A stretch of DNA of 58,265 nt, from NCBI GenBank assembly GCA_019459325.1, contig JAIBFA010000012.1:1-58265 (forward strand), read 5' to 3'. Below are positions 18,186 to 31,614 of the stretch, in pieces. The notes beneath the pieces are model-generated. The model was not told where the DNA came from, did not search any database, and saw only the letters and a program-made list of their open reading frames with translations. The position numbers were made by a program, and so were the translations under genes. This DNA comes from Thiobacillus sp. Lineage in GTDB: Bacteria > Pseudomonadota > Gammaproteobacteria > Burkholderiales > Thiobacillaceae. Every line of letters starts with the position of its first letter. Position 1 is the first letter of the stretch.

Positions 18186-18761
18186 TCAGCTGCGGCGGAA
18201 GGCCCATTTCCCGCGTCCGGCCGGGCAGGCCAGCACGTCACGCGGTGTGCGGCCGTCGACCACCAGTGTGGCGTGGCGGCAGTCGTCGCGCGCATCGCCG
18301 CGCGGGGTGAAATGGTAATCGTGGCCGCCGCTGTGCCAGACCACCGGCGCGCCGGGGCGGCCCAGTTCCAGCGCGTGGCCCATGCAGGCGCGGTCGCGGT
18401 TGTCCATGCTGTCGCCAATGGCGTGTCCCACCACCGCGCCAAGCACGCCGCCGATCACCATGCCGACCACGCGATCGTCGCGGCTGGCGACCTGGCCACC
18501 GATCACCGCGCCGGTCACGCCACCGATCACCGCACCGATTTCGTCGCGGTTGCAGCGGCCGGACGGGATTCCGTAATCCTGGGCATACACGGCCCCGCTT
18601 TTGCCTTGGTAATGCTTGGCTTTTTTGTATTTCTTGCGGTCGTGGCCGTCGTCGTAATGCTTCTTGTAATAGCCATGCGCAGGCGCGTGACCGGGGGGGT
18701 CGGCGAGCGCCGTACCGGCACCCACCAGCGTGGCGAGGGTCAGGGCGGCAGGGAAGTTCAT
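18186..18761 (-). CDS. Exported glycine-zipper 2TM-domain protein
   Basis: A 191-residue protein with a signal peptide (MNFPAALTLATLVGAGTALA). A Lys/Tyr/His-rich stretch follows (about 28-58, YYKKHYDDGHDRKKYKK). A glycine-zipper region (about 75-118) has repeated GAVIGG / GxxxG spacing (EIGAVIGGVTGAVIGGQVA, VGMVIGGVLGAVVGHAIGD), typical of the 17 kDa surface antigen/SlyB-type 2TM domain. The C-terminal part is polar with two Cys. The ATG at 18761 is preceded by AAGGAG. It is probably anchored to the outer membrane or periplasm. Function unknown. Confidence 0.85.
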   Translation of the reverse strand: MNFPAALTLATLVGAGTALADPPGHAPAHGYYKKHYDDGHDRKKYKKAKHYQGKSGAVYAQDYGIPSGRCNRDEIGAVIGGVTGAVIGGQVASRDDRVVGMVIGGVLGAVVGHAIGDSMDNRDRACMGHALELGRPGAPVVWHSGGHDYHFTPRGDARDDCRHATLVVDGRTPRDVLACPAGRGKWAFRRS

Positions 18762-18841
18762 TGTTTTTTCTCCTTCGCGAGCGGGATGATTCGGATCGTT
18801 AACGGCCGGGCGCCGGCCAACTATAGCGGCGCCCGCCTGGC

Positions 18842-19246
18842 TCAATTGAACCGGGACGCGTAGCCGTAGGCATGGCGCGCCTGACGATCATGCTTTTCCA
18901 TCCGGATATTGCGATCCGCCATGTCGAGCGCACGGTCCAGGCGTTGAAATTCGCGCGTGCCGATTCTGCCATCTGCACGGAAACGCTGTTCCATGGCATG
19001 GATTTTGTGCTGTTCTTGCATCAACACGCGGAATTCGGCGCGGGTAAGCTGGCCCGAGCGCATACCAACCCGGATGCGATCCTGCTGTCGATCCTGGCGT
19101 GCGTCGATCTGCTGGTTATAGGCCTGGCTTTGCAGGTAAGCCTGCTTGTGACCGTAGCCGCCCCGCTCCCAGTCGGCCTGCGCGCCGGTTGCGATCAGGC
19201 CCAGTGCCAGCATACCGAGGGTTTTTTTCATCAAGGTGTTTTTCAT
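18842..19246 (-). CDS. Small exported helical protein, unknown function
   Basis: A 134-residue protein with a signal peptide ending in ATGAQA (about residue 23). The mature part is short, very rich in Gln, Arg and Asp and probably all helical (QDRIRVGMRSGQLTRAEFRVLMQEQHKIHAMEQRF). Its 'G.LT..E...L..' segments resemble those in periplasmic stress proteins, but I would not assign it to the Spy/CpxP family. ATG at 19246 has AGGAG seven bases before it. Two TGTAAC repeats and a facing GTTAC lie 100-125 bases upstream and may control it. Confidence 0.78.
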   Translation of the reverse strand: MKNTLMKKTLGMLALGLIATGAQADWERGGYGHKQAYLQSQAYNQQIDARQDRQQDRIRVGMRSGQLTRAEFRVLMQEQHKIHAMEQRFRADGRIGTREFQRLDRALDMADRNIRMEKHDRQARHAYGYASRFN

Positions 19247-19556: not shown

Positions 19557-20717
19557 ATGCAACTGAAGAAACTCGCGGCCACCCTGGCCGCGGTGGGAAT
19601 GACTGTGCCTGGCCTGGCACTTGCCACCAACGGCATGCTGATGGAAGGCTACGGCCCCATCGCCGCAGGCATGGGCGGAGCGGCCATGGCGTACGACAAC
19701 GGCACCGCTGCCATGGCCAACAACCCGGCAACGCTGGGTCTGATGGCGGACGGCAGCCGCATCGATCTCATGCTGGGCCATGTCGGCCCCGACGTCTCGG
19801 TCCCGGCAATGATGGGGGCCTCCGAGGCGGACGCCTTCTACATGCCGGCCTTCGGCTACGTCAAAAAACAGGGCAAACTGGCCTACGGCGTCGGCATCTA
19901 CGGCCAGGGCGGCATGGGCACCGAGTACGCCAGCGGCGACATGGCGCAGGTGAGCGTGGGCCGTGTGATCTTCCCGCTGGCCTATTCCGTCAACGAGCGC
20001 TTCAACATCGGCGGCAGCGTCGACATCGTGTGGGCGGGGATGGATCTGGTCGCCGATCTTAATCCCGCCAATCCGGGTAAAGAGATAGATTTCAAGGACG
20101 ACAGCGATTTCAGCGGCCAGGCCAAGGGCTACAGTGTGGCGGCCAAGCTCGGCTTCACCTACAAGCTCAACGATGCCCTTAGCTTGGGCGGCGTCTACCA
20201 GACTGCCGGCAATCTGCCCGACCTCAAGGACGGCGGCTACAAGGTGGAAGGCTTCGACATGCCGCCCATCGTCGGCTTGGGCCTGGCCTGGCAGGCGAAC
20301 GACCGCCTCATGGTCGCGGCCGACGTCAAGGACGTGATGTGGGGCAGCAGCATGAATACCGTGACCATTTACAACAATGGCGCAGTTGTGGCTCCGTTCC
20401 AGCAGGACTGGGACGACCAGATCGTGTTGTCGCTGGGCCTGGCCTACAAGTTCACCGACGCCTTCACCGGTCGTGTGGGCTACAACCGCGGCAAGAATCC
20501 GATCCCGGATCAAAACGTCAGCTACCTGTGGCCGGCGATCGTCGAAGACCATTACACGGTGGGTTTCGGCTATGCCTTCAGCAAGCAGTCGCAGATCAAC
20601 TTCGGACTGAGCTATGTGCCGGAGGTCTCGGTGACCGGAACAGGCGCGCAGAATGGTGGCATGACCATCGAACACAGCCAGATGAACTGGCAGCTGATGT
20701 ATAGCTACGCGTTCTGA
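19557..20717 (+). CDS. OmpP1/FadL/TodX-family outer-membrane transporter
   Basis: A 386-residue protein with a signal peptide ending LALA (residue about 22), then TNGMLMEGYGPIAAGMGGAAMA, the N-terminal hatch signature of FadL-type channels (N-terminal plug plus NPA at NNPATLG). The rest alternates amphipathic strands typical of a 14-stranded barrel and ends in aromatic YSYAF, as outer-membrane proteins do. FadL-type channels move hydrophobic compounds such as fatty acids or aromatics across the outer membrane. This copy is shorter than E. coli FadL. GTAGGAG precedes the ATG, and a strong terminator follows. The substrate cannot be told. Confidence 0.88.
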   Translation: MQLKKLAATLAAVGMTVPGLALATNGMLMEGYGPIAAGMGGAAMAYDNGTAAMANNPATLGLMADGSRIDLMLGHVGPDVSVPAMMGASEADAFYMPAFGYVKKQGKLAYGVGIYGQGGMGTEYASGDMAQVSVGRVIFPLAYSVNERFNIGGSVDIVWAGMDLVADLNPANPGKEIDFKDDSDFSGQAKGYSVAAKLGFTYKLNDALSLGGVYQTAGNLPDLKDGGYKVEGFDMPPIVGLGLAWQANDRLMVAADVKDVMWGSSMNTVTIYNNGAVVAPFQQDWDDQIVLSLGLAYKFTDAFTGRVGYNRGKNPIPDQNVSYLWPAIVEDHYTVGFGYAFSKQSQINFGLSYVPEVSVTGTGAQNGGMTIEHSQMNWQLMYSYAF

Positions 20718-20736
20718 TCGACGGATTCGATTGCAC

Positions 20737-20767
20737 AAGGCCGGGGGCGCGAGTCCCCGGCCTTTTT
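20737..20767 (+). terminator. Rho-independent terminator after the FadL-type gene
   Basis: A GC-rich stem (AAGGCCGGGG paired with CCCCGGCCTT) with a short loop is followed by a T-run. It also lies at the end of the minus-strand gene at 20783, and its A-rich left side may let it work both ways. Confidence 0.85.
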
Positions 20768-20782
20768 TATTGAAGCGGCCGC

Positions 20783-21145
20783 TTACGGTTTCTGCAGATC
20801 TTCGCCCAGCTGCTCGATCTTTTCGCCGGTCTGTTCACGCGCCTCGTCCAAGCTGCGCCCGGCCTCTTCCGCCGGTCCCGGTCTGGCTGTGGCGCCGTCA
20901 TACAACGGTTCCGCCTCTTCCTTCATTTCTCTGACGGCCTGATCGACCTGCTCACCCGCCTGTTCGGCCGGGCCCTTGTTGTCGCAAGCATTCAGCACCA
21001 GCAGACTGGTCAGCAGCGCCAGCACGCCGTAAGAAGCATGCCAGGGGTGGGTGCGTTTCGAGCCAGCCGGGATCGCGTGCTGCGTGCCGCTCCATTCGTA
21101 CAGTCGCATGTGTTCGTCGTTGAGATGTTGCGTGGTCTTGCGCAT
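20783..21145 (-). CDS. Small predicted lipoprotein with a charged helical tail
   Basis: A 120-residue protein. A hydrophobic segment with a lipobox-like end (LLTSLLVLNAC, Cys near residue 56) is followed by an acidic helical region (EQAGEQVDQAVREMKEEAE.. EAREQTGEKIEQLGEDL). About 40 residues precede the hydrophobic segment, which is long for a lipoprotein signal, so the true start may be internal. The ATG at 21145 does have AGGAG in the right place. It follows the BON-domain gene by 73 bases on the same strand and may share its sigma-54 promoter. No recognised function. Confidence 0.65.
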   Translation of the reverse strand: MRKTTQHLNDEHMRLYEWSGTQHAIPAGSKRTHPWHASYGVLALLTSLLVLNACDNKGPAEQAGEQVDQAVREMKEEAEPLYDGATARPGPAEEAGRSLDEAREQTGEKIEQLGEDLQKP

Positions 21146-21218
21146 AGATTCTCCTGGGAGTCGGTCGGGAGCCGGCGGTGGCGAATGCTGCCGCCCCGCC
21201 GGATACTGCTGAGGGCGT

Positions 21219-21704
21219 TTAGCGCTTGATCTGCAGGGCGCTGCTGACATCCTTAACGCCCTCGACACTGCGCGCGAGTTTTTCAGCCTGGGCGATCTGT
21301 GTCGGGCTGTTGACCCAGCCGGACAACTGCACCGTGCCCTGGTGGGTTTCCACGTTCACGTCCAGCCCTTTCACGCTCTCGTCTTTCAGCAGCAGCGCCT
21401 TCACCTTGGCGGTAATCCACGCGTCCTCGACGTACTTGCCCGCCTTGATCCGGTCGTTGTTGGCGCCCGCCTTGGTGTACTCATCATTGCTCAGGCGCTT
21501 GTCACGGTTGGCGTCGCCTTCCGTGAAGGCCTGTTCCTGGCCGCCCTGGGCTTGGAACTCCTTCAGACTGATCATGCCGTCGCCATTGCTGTCCGTGGTC
21601 TGGAAGTTGGGCGTCGCCGGTGCGGCGAGGACCGTCGTTGCGGTGAACGCGCCCAGAGCGCCAGCGAGAGCCAGATTAAGAATGCGATGGTTAATGGATT
21701 TCAT
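21219..21704 (-). CDS. Periplasmic EF-hand plus BON-domain protein
   Basis: A 161-residue exported protein. The signal peptide ends ATTVLAA (about residue 28). Next come one canonical EF-hand calcium loop (DSNGDGMISLKEF, about 38-50) and a second, weaker one (DANRDKRLSNDEY, about 64-76). A C-terminal BON domain (about 92-160: DAWITAKVKALLLKDESVKGLDVNVETHQGTVQLSGWV) resembles OsmY, which binds phospholipid and responds to envelope stress. A sigma-54 promoter sequence lies 55-70 bases upstream and two QseF/GlrR-type operators lie farther up, so this is the best candidate target of the nearby QseF. Confidence 0.88.
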   Translation of the reverse strand: MKSINHRILNLALAGALGAFTATTVLAAPATPNFQTTDSNGDGMISLKEFQAQGGQEQAFTEGDANRDKRLSNDEYTKAGANNDRIKAGKYVEDAWITAKVKALLLKDESVKGLDVNVETHQGTVQLSGWVNSPTQIAQAEKLARSVEGVKDVSSALQIKR

Positions 21705-21758
21705 GTTCTATCTCCTGTAATGAGTCGATTCGAATGCAGGTGCACTCAGGCCAATTAC

Positions 21759-21774
21759 AGCGATGATCGTGCCA
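21759..21774 (-). promoter_or_regulatory. Sigma-54 promoter for the BON-domain gene
   Basis: On the minus strand TGGCACGATCATCGCT matches the sigma-54 consensus TGGCACG-N4-TTGC(A/T) with one mismatch. The GG and GC elements are in the right -24/-12 spacing. The predicted start near 21748 gives a 5' leader of about 44 bases. Confidence 0.82.
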
Positions 21775-21859
21775 GTAGTATTTTTATAAATTAAATCAGA
21801 TAGATAGATCATCTTCATGCGGGAGGTGAGCGAGCGGGCCCAAGTTTTTGGGCTTCAAC

Positions 21860-21877
21860 TGTCGCCAAGAGGCGACA
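21860..21877. promoter_or_regulatory. QseF/GlrR-type operator (TGTC-N10-GACA), site 1
   Basis: A perfect TGTC-N10-GACA, within a larger 26-bp palindrome (arms 21856-21866 and 21871-21881). TGTC-N10-GACA is the operator described for E. coli GlrR (QseF). The centre lies about 120 bp upstream of the predicted sigma-54 start. Confidence 0.8.
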
Positions 21878-21922
21878 GTTGTGGACGGAGTTTTTCAACG
21901 GACTGTTTTAATTGATTTTTTT

Positions 21923-21940
21923 TGTCATGCATCAGAGACA
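21923..21940. promoter_or_regulatory. QseF/GlrR-type operator (TGTC-N10-GACA), site 2
   Basis: A second perfect TGTC-N10-GACA with an unrelated spacer (ATGCATCAGA). It is centred 63 bp, six helical turns, from site 1, so both would sit on the same face of the DNA. Confidence 0.8.
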
Positions 21941-21966
21941 GCCGAAAAGCCGTCTGCTCCAGGCCC

Positions 21967-21988
21967 AAAAAAAGGGAGCCTCGCTCCC
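21967..21988 (-). terminator. Rho-independent terminator of the DUF1328 gene
   Basis: On the minus strand GGGAGC-GAG-GCTCCC is followed by seven T, starting about 22 bases after the stop codon. Confidence 0.9.
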
Positions 21989-22009
21989 TCAATGAATGCG
22001 TTGCGAGGG

Positions 22010-22177
22010 TTAAACCGTGGGTGGGCGGCGACCCAGGACCAGCAACAGCAGAAACACCACCAGACCCACGACAAACAGCACTTTGGCGACCCAGGCGGCG
22101 GTGCCCGCTATGCCGGCAAAGCCGAAAATCCCGGCAATGATGGCAACGATCAGAAACGAAACGGCCCATCCAAACAT
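22010..22177 (-). CDS. Small DUF1328 (YtjA-type) membrane protein
   Basis: A 55-residue protein that starts MFGWAVSFLIVAIIAGIFGF and has two hydrophobic segments (about 5-24 and 29-48) joined by a Gly/Ala turn (AGIAGTAAW), ending in a short basic tail RRPPTV. This is the typical layout of the DUF1328/YtjA family of small stress-associated inner-membrane proteins. The function is unknown. GGAGAAC precedes the ATG at 22177. A sigma-54 promoter lies 53-68 bases upstream, and a strong terminator follows, so it is a single-gene unit next to the sigma-54 activator gene qseF. Confidence 0.88.
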   Translation of the reverse strand: MFGWAVSFLIVAIIAGIFGFAGIAGTAAWVAKVLFVVGLVVFLLLLVLGRRPPTV

Positions 22178-22229
22178 GGTGTTCTCCTATCAGGTTGATA
22201 AACGCGCACGAAGGCACAGTCCCCTCCCA

Positions 22230-22245
22230 TGCAGGGGATGTGCCA
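22230..22245 (-). promoter_or_regulatory. Sigma-54 promoter for the DUF1328 gene
   Basis: On the minus strand TGGCACATCCCCTGCA matches TGGCACG-N4-TTGCA at all but two positions and keeps the GG and GC elements in correct spacing. The predicted start near 22219 gives a leader of about 40 bases. I find no perfect TGTC-N10-GACA upstream of it. Confidence 0.75.
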
Positions 22246-22338
22246 GATGAAAATTTCCTTTTGAATCAATACCATGACTTCGCAGCGTGGGGCCGAGGCC
22301 ATCGCTGGGAACGCCACGCGTCGCCCGTGCCCGACGAA

Positions 22339-23697
22339 TCAGGCGGTGTCGTCGCGGTCCTTGAACAGGGCAGGGGTGAGGCCGTGGCGTTGCAGCAGCC
22401 GATAGACCTCGGTGCGATTGCGTCCGGCCAGCCTGGCCACCTCGCTGACCTGGCCGCGGGTGAGCTTCAGGAGCGTGATGAGGTAATCGCGCTCGAATGC
22501 CGAACGCGCCTCGGCCAGTGGCTGGATCTCGGCCGGCTTGTCGCGCAGGGCGCGCGCCACCAGCGTGGCCGGAATGGTGGGGGTGGTGCACAGCGCACAG
22601 CATTGCTCCAGCACGTTGTGCAACTGGCGGATATTGCCCGGCCAGTCGGCGGCCACCAGCATGTCCAGCGCGTCGGGGGCGAAGCCGTGGATGCGGCGGC
22701 GGTATTTTTCCGTCAGCACGGTGAGGAAATGCTGGGCCAGCAGCGGAATATCCTCGCGCCGCTCGCGCAGCGGCGGCAGCGTCAGGGTGACCACGTTGAG
22801 GCGGTAATACAGATCTTCGCGGAATTCGCCGCTGATGATCGCCTCCTCCAGGTTGCGGTGGGTGGCGGACAGGATGCGCACGTCAACGGGACGCGTTTCG
22901 GTCGCGCCGACCGGACGTACCTCGCCTTCCTGCAGCACGCGCAGCAGCTTGACCTGCAACTGCGGGGGCATGTCGCCGATTTCGTCGAGGAACACGGTGC
23001 CGCCCTCGGCGCTCTGGAACAGGCCGGGGTGATCGCGCCCCGCCCCGGTGAAGGCGCCCTTCACGTGGCCGAACAGTTCCGATTCGAGCAGCTCGGCCGG
23101 AATGGCACCGCAGTTGATCGCAACGAAGGGCTTGGCGTGACGCGGGCTGGCGCGGTGGATGGCGCGCGCCAGCAGTTCCTTGCCGGTGCCCGATTCGCCC
23201 TGGATCAAGAGCGACGCCTCACTTTGTGCGGTCAGCCGGGCTTCCGCCAGCAGGGCGTCCATCGCCGGGCTGGCGGTAACGATTTCACTGCGCCAGCTGT
23301 CGCTGTCCTGGCTGGCTTCGGGGCTGCTGCCGGCGAGGCGGGTGGCGCGTTTCAGCAGATCGATCAGCGTGGGGGCGTCGTAGGGTTTGGTCAGGTAGCC
23401 GAACAGCCCCTGCTGGGTGGCCGCCACCGCGTCCGGAATGGTGCCGTGCGCAGTCAGCACGATCACCGGCAAGGCCGGGTCGCGCGCATGGACGGCGCGA
23501 AACAGCGCCATCCCGTCCATGCCCGCCATCTGCATGTCGGTCAGCACGGCGTCGGGGCGGCTCAGCGCCAGCTGCGCCAGCGCGGCTTCGCCGCTGTCGA
23601 CTGCCTCGACCCTGAAGCCATTGGCCTCCAGCCGCAGCGTGATCAGCTCGCGTAGCGCCGCGTCGTCGTCGACCACCAGAATGCAGGGTTTTTTCAT
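22339..23697 (-). CDS. qseF: Sigma-54-dependent response regulator QseF/GlrR
   Basis: A 452-residue NtrC-type activator. The receiver domain (about 1-120) has DDD at 10-12, phospho-acceptor Asp54 (VLTDMQM) and Lys in TKPYD. The AAA+ domain (about 145-375) has Walker A GESGTGKE, the sigma-54-contacting GAFTGA loop and Walker [12 protein letters not shown] Fis-type helix-turn-helix sits at the C-terminus ([26 protein letters not shown]). It starts within the qseG stop (ATGA) in a qseE-qseG-qseF order, the same as glrK-qseG-glrR in enterobacteria, where the regulator drives glmY. Two matching operators lie about 400 bases downstream of this gene. Confidence 0.92.
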
Positions 23698-24164
23698 GGG
23701 GCTTTAGGCAATCCGTTGCGTTGCTGCAGGGATTTTTCCAGCGCCTTGATCTGGTCGAGCTTGTCCTGCAATTCCTGCACCTGCGCAGTCTGCTGCTTGA
23801 GCTCGATGCGCGTCTTGAACGATTTTTTCATCAGCTCGAGCAGGGGCCGCGCACGGGATTCGATCTCGGCGATTGCGCTCACGCTTTTCAGGCCGCGTTC
23901 GAGGGCCTCCACGCTGTCCTCGCGCTCCAGCAGGGCGGCCAGCTGAAAGCGCCGGGCGTCGTCGAGGCGGCGTTCGCTGTCCAGCCTGTCCAGTTCGCGG
24001 CGCCGTTGCTCGGGCGACAGCGACGCCACCCGTGACAGCTCGTTCAACAGGGCTGTCGCGTCCAGTCCGGTCTGCGCGGCGTGAAAAGATGGGCGTTCGA
24101 GCGGGGCGGCACAGGCCCCCAGCATCAGCAGCAGCCCGGCAAGAAATACGGATTTGAATGTCAT
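23694..24164 (-). CDS. qseG: QseG-like lipoprotein of the QseE/QseF system
   Basis: A 156-residue lipoprotein: hydrophobic signal with lipobox LMLGAC (Cys about residue 18), then helical, strongly charged sequence with a coiled-coil end (about 115-150: KTRIELKQQTAQVQELQDKLDQIKALEKSLQQ). In E. coli the outer-membrane lipoprotein QseG binds the sensor QseE (GlrK) and is needed for its activity. Sequence similarity in this family is low, so the call leans on position: ATG overlaps the kinase stop (ATGA) and its own stop overlaps the qseF start. I chose ATG 24164 over an in-frame start 39 bases upstream inside the kinase gene. Confidence 0.78.
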   Translation of the reverse strand: MTFKSVFLAGLLLMLGACAAPLERPSFHAAQTGLDATALLNELSRVASLSPEQRRRELDRLDSERRLDDARRFQLAALLEREDSVEALERGLKSVSAIAEIESRARPLLELMKKSFKTRIELKQQTAQVQELQDKLDQIKALEKSLQQRNGLPKAP

Positions 24165-25600
24165 TGCGGCATCGGCCAGGTTAAACAGAAACAGGTCGAC
24201 CACGGGGGGCAGTCAGCCACTTCGACGCTGCCGCCTGCAGCCAGCAGCGATTCGCGCACGATCGACAAGCCCAGTCCGCTGCCCTTGACGGTGCTGGCGG
24301 GCTGGCGCGCGCCCTGGAAAAACGGCTCGAAGACGCGGCGGCGCTCGGCTTCAGGGATACCTTCACCCTGGTCGCACACCCATACCGCAACCGCGCCTTC
24401 GGCAGGCGCGCTCTTCACCAAAATGCGCCCACCCTCGGGGCTGAATTTGACCGCATTGGACAGCAGATTGTCGAGTACGGTTTCCAGCTGGCTGCGATCG
24501 GCGTGCACGGCAGCGGCGTCCAGTTGCGCCTCGACCCGGATGCCGCGTGCGTCGAGTGCCAGCCGTTGCCGCGCCAGCACGCCGGCAAGTACGTCAGCCA
24601 GCGCATGCGGGGCGGCGGGCGGCAGGGTGGTGTCGCGCATCATGCCGCTGTAGCGGATCAGATCCTCGATGCGCTTCTGCAGGTCGCGGCTGGCGCTGTC
24701 CATGATGGCGACGATGCTGCGCTGGCGCGCGTTGAGACTGCCCGCCAGTTCGTCGTTCAGCAAGGCCACGCCTTCGCGCAGCGAGGCCAGCGGGGTTTTC
24801 AGTTCGTGCGACACATGGCGCAGGAAGCGCAGTTTCTGCTCCTCCAGGGCCTGCAGGCGCTGGCGCAACCAGTCGATTTCGCGCCCCAGCTCGACGATGT
24901 CCTGCGGTCCGCTGATTGCCGGCAGCGGGGAGAGGTCGGCCTGGCCGAGTTGCTGGATCGAGGTCTTGAGCTGTTTGATCGGGCGGTTGATCATCCAGGA
25001 GAACACCCCGGCCAGCAGCAGCGTCAGCGGAATCAGCGCCAGCGCCAGCACGATCAGCCGCTGCCGGGTGGCTTGCACGGTCGCCTCCAGCGCCTGCAAT
25101 TCGCGCTGCACCGCGGCGTCGGCCTGACGGAGCAGGGTGCGTGCGCCCGCATCCAGCGCATCGAATGCGGGGTCGAGCGCATGGAAACGGTCGCTGTCGA
25201 GAAATACGCCCGGTTGCAGCTGGCGATACAGCGTGCGGCTGCGTGTCCCGAGCGCGGCCAGCGTGGCGCGCGCCGGCGCGTCGACGAGTTCAGCGTCGAG
25301 CCGCGCAAGCTGGGCCTGCAATTCGTCGAAGCGGGTCCGCAGGGCAGGACCGAATTCGGCGTCCTGCAGCAGATGGTATTGCCCGGCGGCGCGCTGCAGC
25401 TGGCTGACCGATTCGACGATCTGCCGCACGTCGCGCGTGATGGCGAGGCTGTTGCGGGTGAACTGGCGCTGGGTGTCGACCACGCCCTGCAGCACATGCA
25501 CCGCGTTGATCAGACCACTGGCCAGCGGCACGATCAACACGCCCATCGCGACGATGACGAGGATGGTGAACGAGCGGGGGTAATAAGGGCCCGGAAGCAT
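24161..25600 (-). CDS. qseE: Sensor histidine kinase QseE/GlrK
   Basis: A 479-residue inner-membrane kinase. Membrane segment 1 (about 10-32) and segment 2 (about 180-203) flank a helical periplasmic sensor domain. Next come HAMP (MINRPIKQLKTSIQQLGQADLSPLP), a HisKA helix with the phospho-acceptor HVSHELKTPLASLREG (about 268) and an HATPase domain with N box (LDNLLSNAVKFSP), G1 (VCDQGEGIP) and G2 (GSGLGLSIV). It heads the qseE-qseG-qseF operon. The stimulus cannot be read from sequence; in enterobacteria, envelope signals relayed by QseG are proposed. Confidence 0.9.
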   Translation of the reverse strand: MLPGPYYPRSFTILVIVAMGVLIVPLASGLINAVHVLQGVVDTQRQFTRNSLAITRDVRQIVESVSQLQRAAGQYHLLQDAEFGPALRTRFDELQAQLARLDAELVDAPARATLAALGTRSRTLYRQLQPGVFLDSDRFHALDPAFDALDAGARTLLRQADAAVQRELQALEATVQATRQRLIVLALALIPLTLLLAGVFSWMINRPIKQLKTSIQQLGQADLSPLPAISGPQDIVELGREIDWLRQRLQALEEQKLRFLRHVSHELKTPLASLREGVALLNDELAGSLNARQRSIVAIMDSASRDLQKRIEDLIRYSGMMRDTTLPPAAPHALADVLAGVLARQRLALDARGIRVEAQLDAAAVHADRSQLETVLDNLLSNAVKFSPEGGRILVKSAPAEGAVAVWVCDQGEGIPEAERRRVFEPFFQGARQPASTVKGSGLGLSIVRESLLAAGGSVEVADCPPWSTCFCLTWPMPQ

Positions 25601-25633
25601 CTGGACAGGAGATCGGTGTGATGTTGCAGCATA

Positions 25634-25680
25634 CCCCGATGGTGCAGCGCGATGGCGACGCCATCGCGCATGCAGCGGGG
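25634..25680 (-). terminator. Long hairpin after gltD
   Basis: Nested perfect arms (25647-25656 with 25660-25669, CCCCG 25634-25638 with CGGGG 25676-25680) form a stable stem just downstream of the gltD stop. There is no T-run, so it could be a stabilising 3' end or an intrinsic terminator of weak type. Confidence 0.55.
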
Positions 25681-25681
25681 T

Positions 25682-31614
<5,933 letters not shown>

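Follow-up and report, generated by a model that had tools for sequence, protein, structure and literature searches.

We describe a conserved regulatory arrangement in a 58,265-nucleotide stretch of a Thiobacillus sp. genome (contig JAIBFA010000012.1; hereafter, the window), in which an operon for the QseE-QseG-QseF (QseEGF) signaling system, a stress-sensing switch first known from E. coli, is followed by genes for a small DUF1328 membrane protein and an EF-hand/BON protein. We propose, with considerable confidence, that QseEGF drives both genes through modules composed of QseF operators and a sigma-54-type promoter, that a bactofilin gene in the same genome would be a third target, and that such modules represent a standing output of the system in betaproteobacteria. 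Sequence comparisons thus far make an envelope output other than glmY, the small RNA (sRNA) gene controlled by QseF in E. coli, well supported. The elements in question all lie on the minus strand:

24161-25600, minus strand: qseE-like sensor histidine kinase gene (Pfam HAMP, HisKA and HATPase_c)
23694-24164, minus strand: qseG-like lipoprotein gene (lipobox; position between qseE and qseF)
22339-23697, minus strand: qseF, a GlrR-type sigma-54 activator gene (Pfam Response_reg and Sigma54_activat)
22319-22336, minus strand: degenerate QseF-type site, CGTC-N10-GACG, 91 bp before the DUF1328 promoter and just past the qseF stop
22230-22245, minus strand: sigma-54-type promoter of the DUF1328 gene, TGGCACATCCCCTGCA (GG-N10-GC, conserved)
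22010-22177, minus strand: gene for a DUF1328 (YtjA-like) small membrane protein of 55 amino acids (PF07043, E 8.3e-14)
21923-21940, minus strand: predicted distal QseF operator, TGTCTCTGATGCATGACA (perfect TGTC-N10-GACA)
21860-21877, minus strand: predicted proximal QseF operator, TGTCGCCTCTTGGCGACA (perfect TGTC-N10-GACA)
21759-21774, minus strand: sigma-54-type promoter of the BON gene, TGGCACGATCATCGCT (GG-N10-GC at -24/-12)
21219-21704, minus strand: gene for an EF-hand/BON protein of 161 amino acids (Pfam BON 1.4e-20 and EF-hand_1 3.6e-6, both above cut-off)

An initial annotation of this DNA had placed two perfect TGTC-N10-GACA sites and a sigma-54 promoter in front of the BON gene, next to a qseE-qseG-qseF operon. 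Both sites are present, 63 bp apart, the promoter is confirmed on the minus strand, and coordinates and domains bear out the order of the three genes. The promoter lies 70 bp before the BON ATG, and the operators start 103 and 166 bp before the promoter. While this part of the inventory stands, the annotation had missed a second unit consisting of the DUF1328 gene, its own sigma-54-type promoter and the weaker site. The DUF1328 promoter (22245-22230) is among three sites tied for the top sigma-54 score in the window. Both promoters fit GG-N10-GC at -24/-12 and are conserved in relatives, and the genome encodes RpoN.

A perfect palindrome had been taken as evidence by itself, and this does not hold: bare TGTC-N10-GACA occurs 45 times in the genome, and at least two copies appear in 15 of 100 shuffles of the window. 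We therefore rejected counts of the bare motif as evidence and rest the case on arrangement and conservation. One site plus a promoter in this geometry was found in none of 300 first-order Markov resamplings of the window; the combination of site and promoter is not chance. Across the family, the operator-plus-promoter pattern is found in 59 of 117 genomes (72 listed matches), compared with 5 matches for a reversed pattern and 9 for a promoter spacing that is off by one base.

The initial annotation had suggested scanning relatives for operators and sigma-54 promoters before BON genes near qseF, and such a scan finds the arrangement conserved. Among 30 family loci (the best BON homologues, window included; one, L018, with just 110 bp upstream), 25 have an operator pair (at most one mismatch in eight letters) spaced 62-64 bp, and in 25 an operator begins 102-104 bp before a BON-side sigma-54 site. 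The DUF1328-side promoter is present in 26 of the 30, and in 23 of these 26 it is preceded at 90-101 bp by an operator with at most one mismatch; the other three are L012, L015 and the window itself, whose two-mismatch site puts it outside the count. Across 26 aligned loci, the GTC/GAC half-sites and the promoter GG/GC hardly vary, whereas the spacers drift, and columns at least 90% identical make up 30 of 52 positions within the elements versus 22 of 178 elsewhere. Several family loci have EF-hand-only paralogues inserted between the promoter and the BON gene. The link to qseF is also positional: 30 of the 72 listed family matches lie within 3 kb of it, and matches and QseF co-occur across the family genomes (40/13/19/45, p about 1e-6, with eight matches of the TGTCATGACA type dropped). 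These parts, their geometry, their conservation and their proximity to qseF can be read directly from the DNA.

We then looked beyond the family with a module rule (a score threshold, one mismatch and a distance of 75-115 bp) that was set after seeing the family loci, uses a sigma-54 consensus with weights, and was applied unchanged to two further sets. The order scan found QseF in 120 of 300 genomes, from which 45 loci were picked by family (45 genomes, 36 families). A site and promoter accompany qseF in 24 of these 45 loci, or in 23 of 44 without L204 (genome G439), which was already known to have a match when picked. As controls we used nine motifs, four with a wrong operator spacing, three with scrambled or everted half-sites and two with a wrong promoter spacing; each gave 0 or 1 of 45. 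The second set comprised 80 named loci among the matches listed, 31 of them orthologues (at least 53% identity) and 49 paralogues that served as a control; here, the module occurs in 14 of 31 orthologue loci, with 0-2 for the control motifs, and in 1 of 49 paralogue loci. A class-wide scan was only about 2.6-fold above its control (39 listed matches, 15 control matches), and its loci (L141-L160 and L207-L215) were for that reason not counted toward frequency.

Where does the module sit, and what follows it? In 20 of the 24 order loci the promoter is 121-581 bp past the end of the qseF match, and in four it is divergent from qseE. The first genes after the 20 downstream modules encode BON proteins in six cases (one exactly at the Pfam cut-off), glycine-zipper proteins in three, and an EF-hand protein, an MdoG protein and a family 2 glycosyltransferase in one each; of the remaining eight, four are glycine-zipper-like proteins without a Pfam hit (L165, L174, L176 and L186) and four are without assignment. 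The four divergent modules precede two bactofilin genes, one glycosyltransferase gene and one gene without assignment. Among the order targets, L201 likewise has no Pfam hit, in a scan that covered all but L194, L197 and L199. We take the glycosyltransferases of L173 and L184 to be OpgH; Pfam gives glycosyltransferase family 2 only. BON genes follow qseF in Herbaspirillum, a Methylophilaceae bacterium (with an EF-hand), Chitinimonas, Dechloromonas, Janthinobacterium and Duganella. MdoG is the first gene in Rubrivivax, an EF-hand gene is first in the gammaproteobacterial assembly L071, bactofilin is divergent from qseE in Dechloromonas, Propionivibrio and L066, and GlmY is found in an Enterobacteriaceae genome among the named loci. 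The glycine-zipper family has a member in the window as well: a 2TM gene (PF05433) at 18186-18845, minus strand, belongs to the same Pfam family as the payload of QseF modules in other order loci.

The spacing of these modules is itself regular. In the named and order loci, 31 of the 39 listed spacings between paired operators fall at 63-68 bp, and the distances from proximal operator to promoter cluster near 82, 92, 103 and 112 bp (41 distances; the lists count L065 and L172 twice). These distances fit a period of 10.2 bp best, a periodicity not equalled in any of 5000 random draws, with the reservation that the draws assume independent loci and relatives are not entirely independent. Such phasing of site and promoter fits an activator confined to one face of the helix.

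A further candidate target lies elsewhere in the genome. Only one bactofilin gene was found (G000:C84). Its sigma-54-type site is preceded by a perfect operator at 170 bp and by one with two mismatches at 92 bp, and the gene is probably a third target of QseF. The circuit had been called self-contained, a description that fits neither this module nor the overlooked DUF1328 unit. An earlier pattern search had given seven bactofilin loci; when we read 30 loci, out of 52 matches in 51 genomes, five had the module, one of them shared with the seven.

The regulator itself is of the QseF type. Its protein is 54.8% identical to E. coli GlrR, with the recognition helix AGRNRTE in both, and it falls within the QseF clade of our tree. 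Of 89 QseF orthologues, 86 carry the motif RNRT[ED] in the recognition helix, whereas none of 49 paralogues, which are related activators, does so; the HTH_8 match of the window protein is under the Pfam cut-off. The qseE product shares 156 identical residues (32.8%) with E. coli GlrK. QseG, at 156 amino acids, is shorter than its enterobacterial counterpart, to which it has weak similarity, and matches no Pfam or NCBIfam model. A QseG profile built from 48 rows (the window plus betaproteobacteria of the family, order and named sets) nevertheless aligns with four enterobacterial rows at a probability of 91.6% (E 8.2e-7), and a lipobox reading frame lies between qseE and qseF in 68 of 79 loci examined, the window and E. 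coli counted. A comparison of a QseG motif with the QseE contacts mapped in Salmonella was dropped, as the residue numbers could not be placed. The BON protein has a signal-like N-terminal stretch by eye and a BON domain scoring 73.8 bits against a Pfam cut-off of 27; its match to the NCBIfam OsmY model (76.7 bits, E 1.8e-21; residues 59-160) is under the 174-bit equivalog cut-off.

Based on these observations, we suggest the following model. QseE, sensing the envelope together with the lipoprotein QseG, would phosphorylate QseF, which would bind the TGTC-N10-GACA sites, two at the BON gene and one weaker site at the DUF1328 gene. Bound QseF would then reach, by looping, the sigma-54 polymerase poised about 103 or 91 bp downstream and open two promoters, one for a periplasmic EF-hand/BON protein and one for the small membrane protein of the DUF1328 family. 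More generally, a QseF operator pair, a helically phased sigma-54 promoter and a payload gene would form the standing QseEGF output in betaproteobacteria. The payload varies by lineage, with an envelope or extracytoplasmic function where it could be assigned, and in enterobacteria the same module drives the sRNA gene glmY. Binding, phosphorylation, sigma-54 dependence, looping and the physiological role are the inferred parts of this model.

Several results weigh against this model or narrow it. The module rule finds nothing at 21 of the 45 order loci and 17 of the 31 named orthologue loci; some of these are false negatives, as the rule overlooks two of the four loci (L085 and L088) where Rfam finds GlmY. 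In the gammaproteobacteria nearest Enterobacterales, most loci likewise have no module by the rule. Family matches distant from qseF do not significantly track QseF (20/13/39/45, p=0.22), and we accordingly set them aside as a regulon. Genome G092 retains modules, with no QseF above threshold among the 14 candidates scored of its 54. The bactofilin target is patchy, given its module in 5 of 30 family loci. The best NCBIfam model for QseF is GlrR, at 579.6 bits, under the 763-bit equivalog cut-off, for which reason we name the protein a QseF-type orthologue and not an enterobacterial GlrR equivalog. The DUF1328 operator of the window is off in two of its eight letters. Finally, no perfect integration host factor (IHF) consensus (WATCAANNNNTTR) occurs in 21701-22400; of four one-mismatch hits there, none is between the operators and the BON promoter. 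One of these IHF-like sites, at 22264-22276, lies between the DUF1328 operator and the DUF1328 promoter.

Another sigma-54 activator might own the sites, such as a PrsR-type regulator of exopolysaccharide (EPS) or PEP-CTERM genes, with qseF only a neighbor. Indeed, the better NCBIfam matches of the QseF protein include a PrsR-type model (PEP_resp_reg), the eight TGTCATGACA-type matches among the 72 listed in the family resemble another regulator's sites, and the distant matches fail to follow QseF. However, the sites adjoin qseF in many families and resemble the upstream activating sequence (UAS) of E. coli glmY in both sequence and spacing, the module separates orthologue from paralogue loci, and the recognition helix is particular to QseF orthologues. 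We regard this assignment as quite improbable. Some uniform sites do appear to have another owner: a second type, TGTCATGACANCATGACA with small variants, precedes a sigma-54-type promoter in G060:C95, G061:C53, G071:C136, G076:C77, G080:C9, G088:C13, G099:C79 and G103:C110, and probably marks another activator's regulon. By eye, the genes that follow it in the two such loci that were read, L056 and L057, encode a small protein and a rhodanese-like protein.

In E. coli, osmY is expressed from housekeeping or RpoS promoters, and BON and DUF1328 genes are neighbors there too (osmY-ytjA), far from qseEGF. The two window genes might likewise be expressed mainly from such promoters, with a minor input from QseF, which we consider unlikely: both genes have strong, conserved sigma-54-type sites, and a simple sigma-70 scan of 20600-25800 found nothing, although scans of this kind miss many promoters. 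We give hardly any credence to reading the palindromes as hairpins in RNA or as GC-rich repeats that arose by chance. The proximal operator can form a 7-bp hairpin by eye, and the bare motif is common in the genome, but the spacer of the distal operator is non-palindromic, the half-sites are conserved while the spacer middles drift, and the sites lie between a terminator-like hairpin and the expected transcription start. A conserved inverted repeat, GAGTGCA...TGCATTC, is found at the expected start of the BON mRNA (21749-21704, minus strand); as a hairpin in the 5' untranslated region it folds no better than shuffled sequence (z -1.3; 18 of 200 shuffles did equally well) and was discarded.

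How QseF came to control these genes was approached with a quick tree of 93 QseF rows, seven of them chosen from the class-wide scan for having a match. By its labels, Ewingella (L085) and Arsenophonus (L088) count as 'none' though they carry GlmY, and Dechloromonas (L065) counts as BON though it also has a bactofilin module. All output labels together require 32 changes on this tree versus 47.9 when shuffled, with 8 changes for BON, 5 for EF-hand and 7 for glycine zipper, the last not clustered (shuffles equal). GlmY, detected by Rfam in four enterobacterial rows, forms one clade nested among protein-output loci. As protein outputs are widespread and glmY is nested, the tree favors, without proving, protein outputs first. 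Its weight is limited: 25 of the 90 inner branches are open, deep forks are weak and the outputs change frequently along it, and an 'ancestral' envelope output, as the initial annotation had put it, is only suggestive. A broader idea, which in our view might equally turn out right or wrong, is that QseEGF is in essence a Pseudomonadota switch for envelope proteins with a transferable cassette (operator pair, phased sigma-54 promoter and a swappable extracytoplasmic payload such as BON, EF-hand, glycine zipper, bactofilin or periplasmic-glucan synthesis), glmY being a late payload with the 63-bp spacing intact.

Some modules in the family stand apart from any evident BON gene. Extra BON-type operator-promoter modules without an evident BON gene nearby are found in L250 (1760-2310, in tandem), near 5122 in L248 and near 1039 in L251; the module in L248 precedes a cytochrome-like reading frame and that in L250 an unclear 69-amino-acid open reading frame (ORF). 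They look as if the regulatory cassette duplicates on its own. An sRNA reading of these three promoters was unsupported, with no Rfam match near the gathering score and weak hairpins before T-runs. In three family genomes (L045, L046 and L047), small proteins with a signal-like start and an N-rich AQWQ motif in common are encoded behind QseF-type modules.

On the minus strand, the gene order around the system is gltB, gltD, qseE, qseG, qseF, DUF1328, EF-hand/BON and a small ORF, with two further features to add to the list above:

21972-21990, minus strand: terminator-like hairpin 3' of the DUF1328 gene, dividing the two units
20783-21145, minus strand: small ORF 3' of the BON gene, possibly co-transcribed (reading frame)

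Terminator-like hits across 20600-25800 are not above shuffles (5 versus a mean of 4.4, standard deviation 2.1), and the small ORF matches no Pfam or NCBIfam model. The genes at 31614-25682 (minus strand) are presumably gltB and gltD, names that we assigned from the sequence. They are directly upstream of qseEGF on the same strand, with 81 bp from the gltD stop to the qseE start, and the gltD-qseE adjacency is retained in G053 (L060). In E. coli, qseEGF adjoins glnB.

Accounts of QseEF usually center on enterobacterial virulence and GlmY. A position-linked output that is conserved across betaproteobacteria would give QseEGF a testable general role in envelope homeostasis, and the module predicts direct targets with defined sites in many species. 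The loci also provide enhancer-promoter distances that vary naturally while the helical face stays the same and the payloads differ, and a clean case in which a control module is conserved and its output replaced.

The presence of the system in these bacteria is already in print: qseEGF is reported in Gamma- and Betaproteobacteria and Acidithiobacillia (PMC12691602), GlrK-GlrR in beta- and deltaproteobacteria and Nitrospira (PMC8895600), and a QseF-like group of sigma-54 activators has been described (PMC3162934); PMC12194929 is also among the related literature. The text of PMC12691602 does not contain 'BON domain' and has 'regulon' only in a reference title, and PMC3162934 does not contain osmY, BON domain or DUF1328. 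Judged by title and the start of the abstract, no paper among the matches listed describes these outputs, in a search whose coverage excludes most subscription journals. An envelope output as such is not new, given rpoE in E. coli (PMC6075780) and the published betaproteobacterial qseEGF (PMC12691602). A betaproteobacterial parallel in passages of PMC9850573 is the control of PEP-CTERM genes by PrsK-PrsR and RpoN, which is alike in having an RpoN-dependent surface-protein gene and differs in its regulator; the binding-site sequence is absent from those passages.

The E. coli pair osmY-ytjA resembles the window in that a BON gene is next to a DUF1328 gene. There, osmY is a 606-bp gene far from qseEGF, whereas the BON gene of the window is beside it. 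Similarly, rpoE is not beside qseEGF in E. coli and encodes a regulator, whereas here structural envelope genes adjoin qseF. The likeness is that rpoE P2, a promoter of an envelope-stress gene, is a sigma-54 promoter activated by QseF (Klein et al. 2016, cited in PMC6075780). According to PMC6075780, the QseF UAS consensus is TGTN12ACA, the targets are glmY and rpoE, and IHF assists QseF in E. coli; the window has the same UAS upstream of a sigma-54 promoter.

There is a close resemblance to E. coli QseE-QseG-QseF and glmY, and together with the order and named loci it supports the view of the initial annotation that a QseF-type regulator acts here through E. coli-type operators and a sigma-54-type promoter, with an envelope protein and not glmY as its target. 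The glmY gene of E. coli K-12 has three TGTN12ACA sites, at -230, -197 and -134. The last two are spaced 63 bp, and the one nearest the gene starts 107 bp before the sigma-54 promoter TGGCACAGTTACTGCA. The two systems share the order of the three genes, the recognition helix, a TGTC-N10-GACA pair 63 bp apart and a sigma-54 promoter at 107 bp (here, 103). GlmY itself has no match in 20000-27000 at E up to 1, with a library that finds it in four of four enterobacterial loci. There are two operators at the BON gene versus three at glmY, and the target here is a protein gene downstream of qseF, whereas in E. coli it is an sRNA gene upstream of qseE. As the arrangement recurs in many relatives, the comparison suggests that QseF kept its control sites while exchanging the genes that they control.

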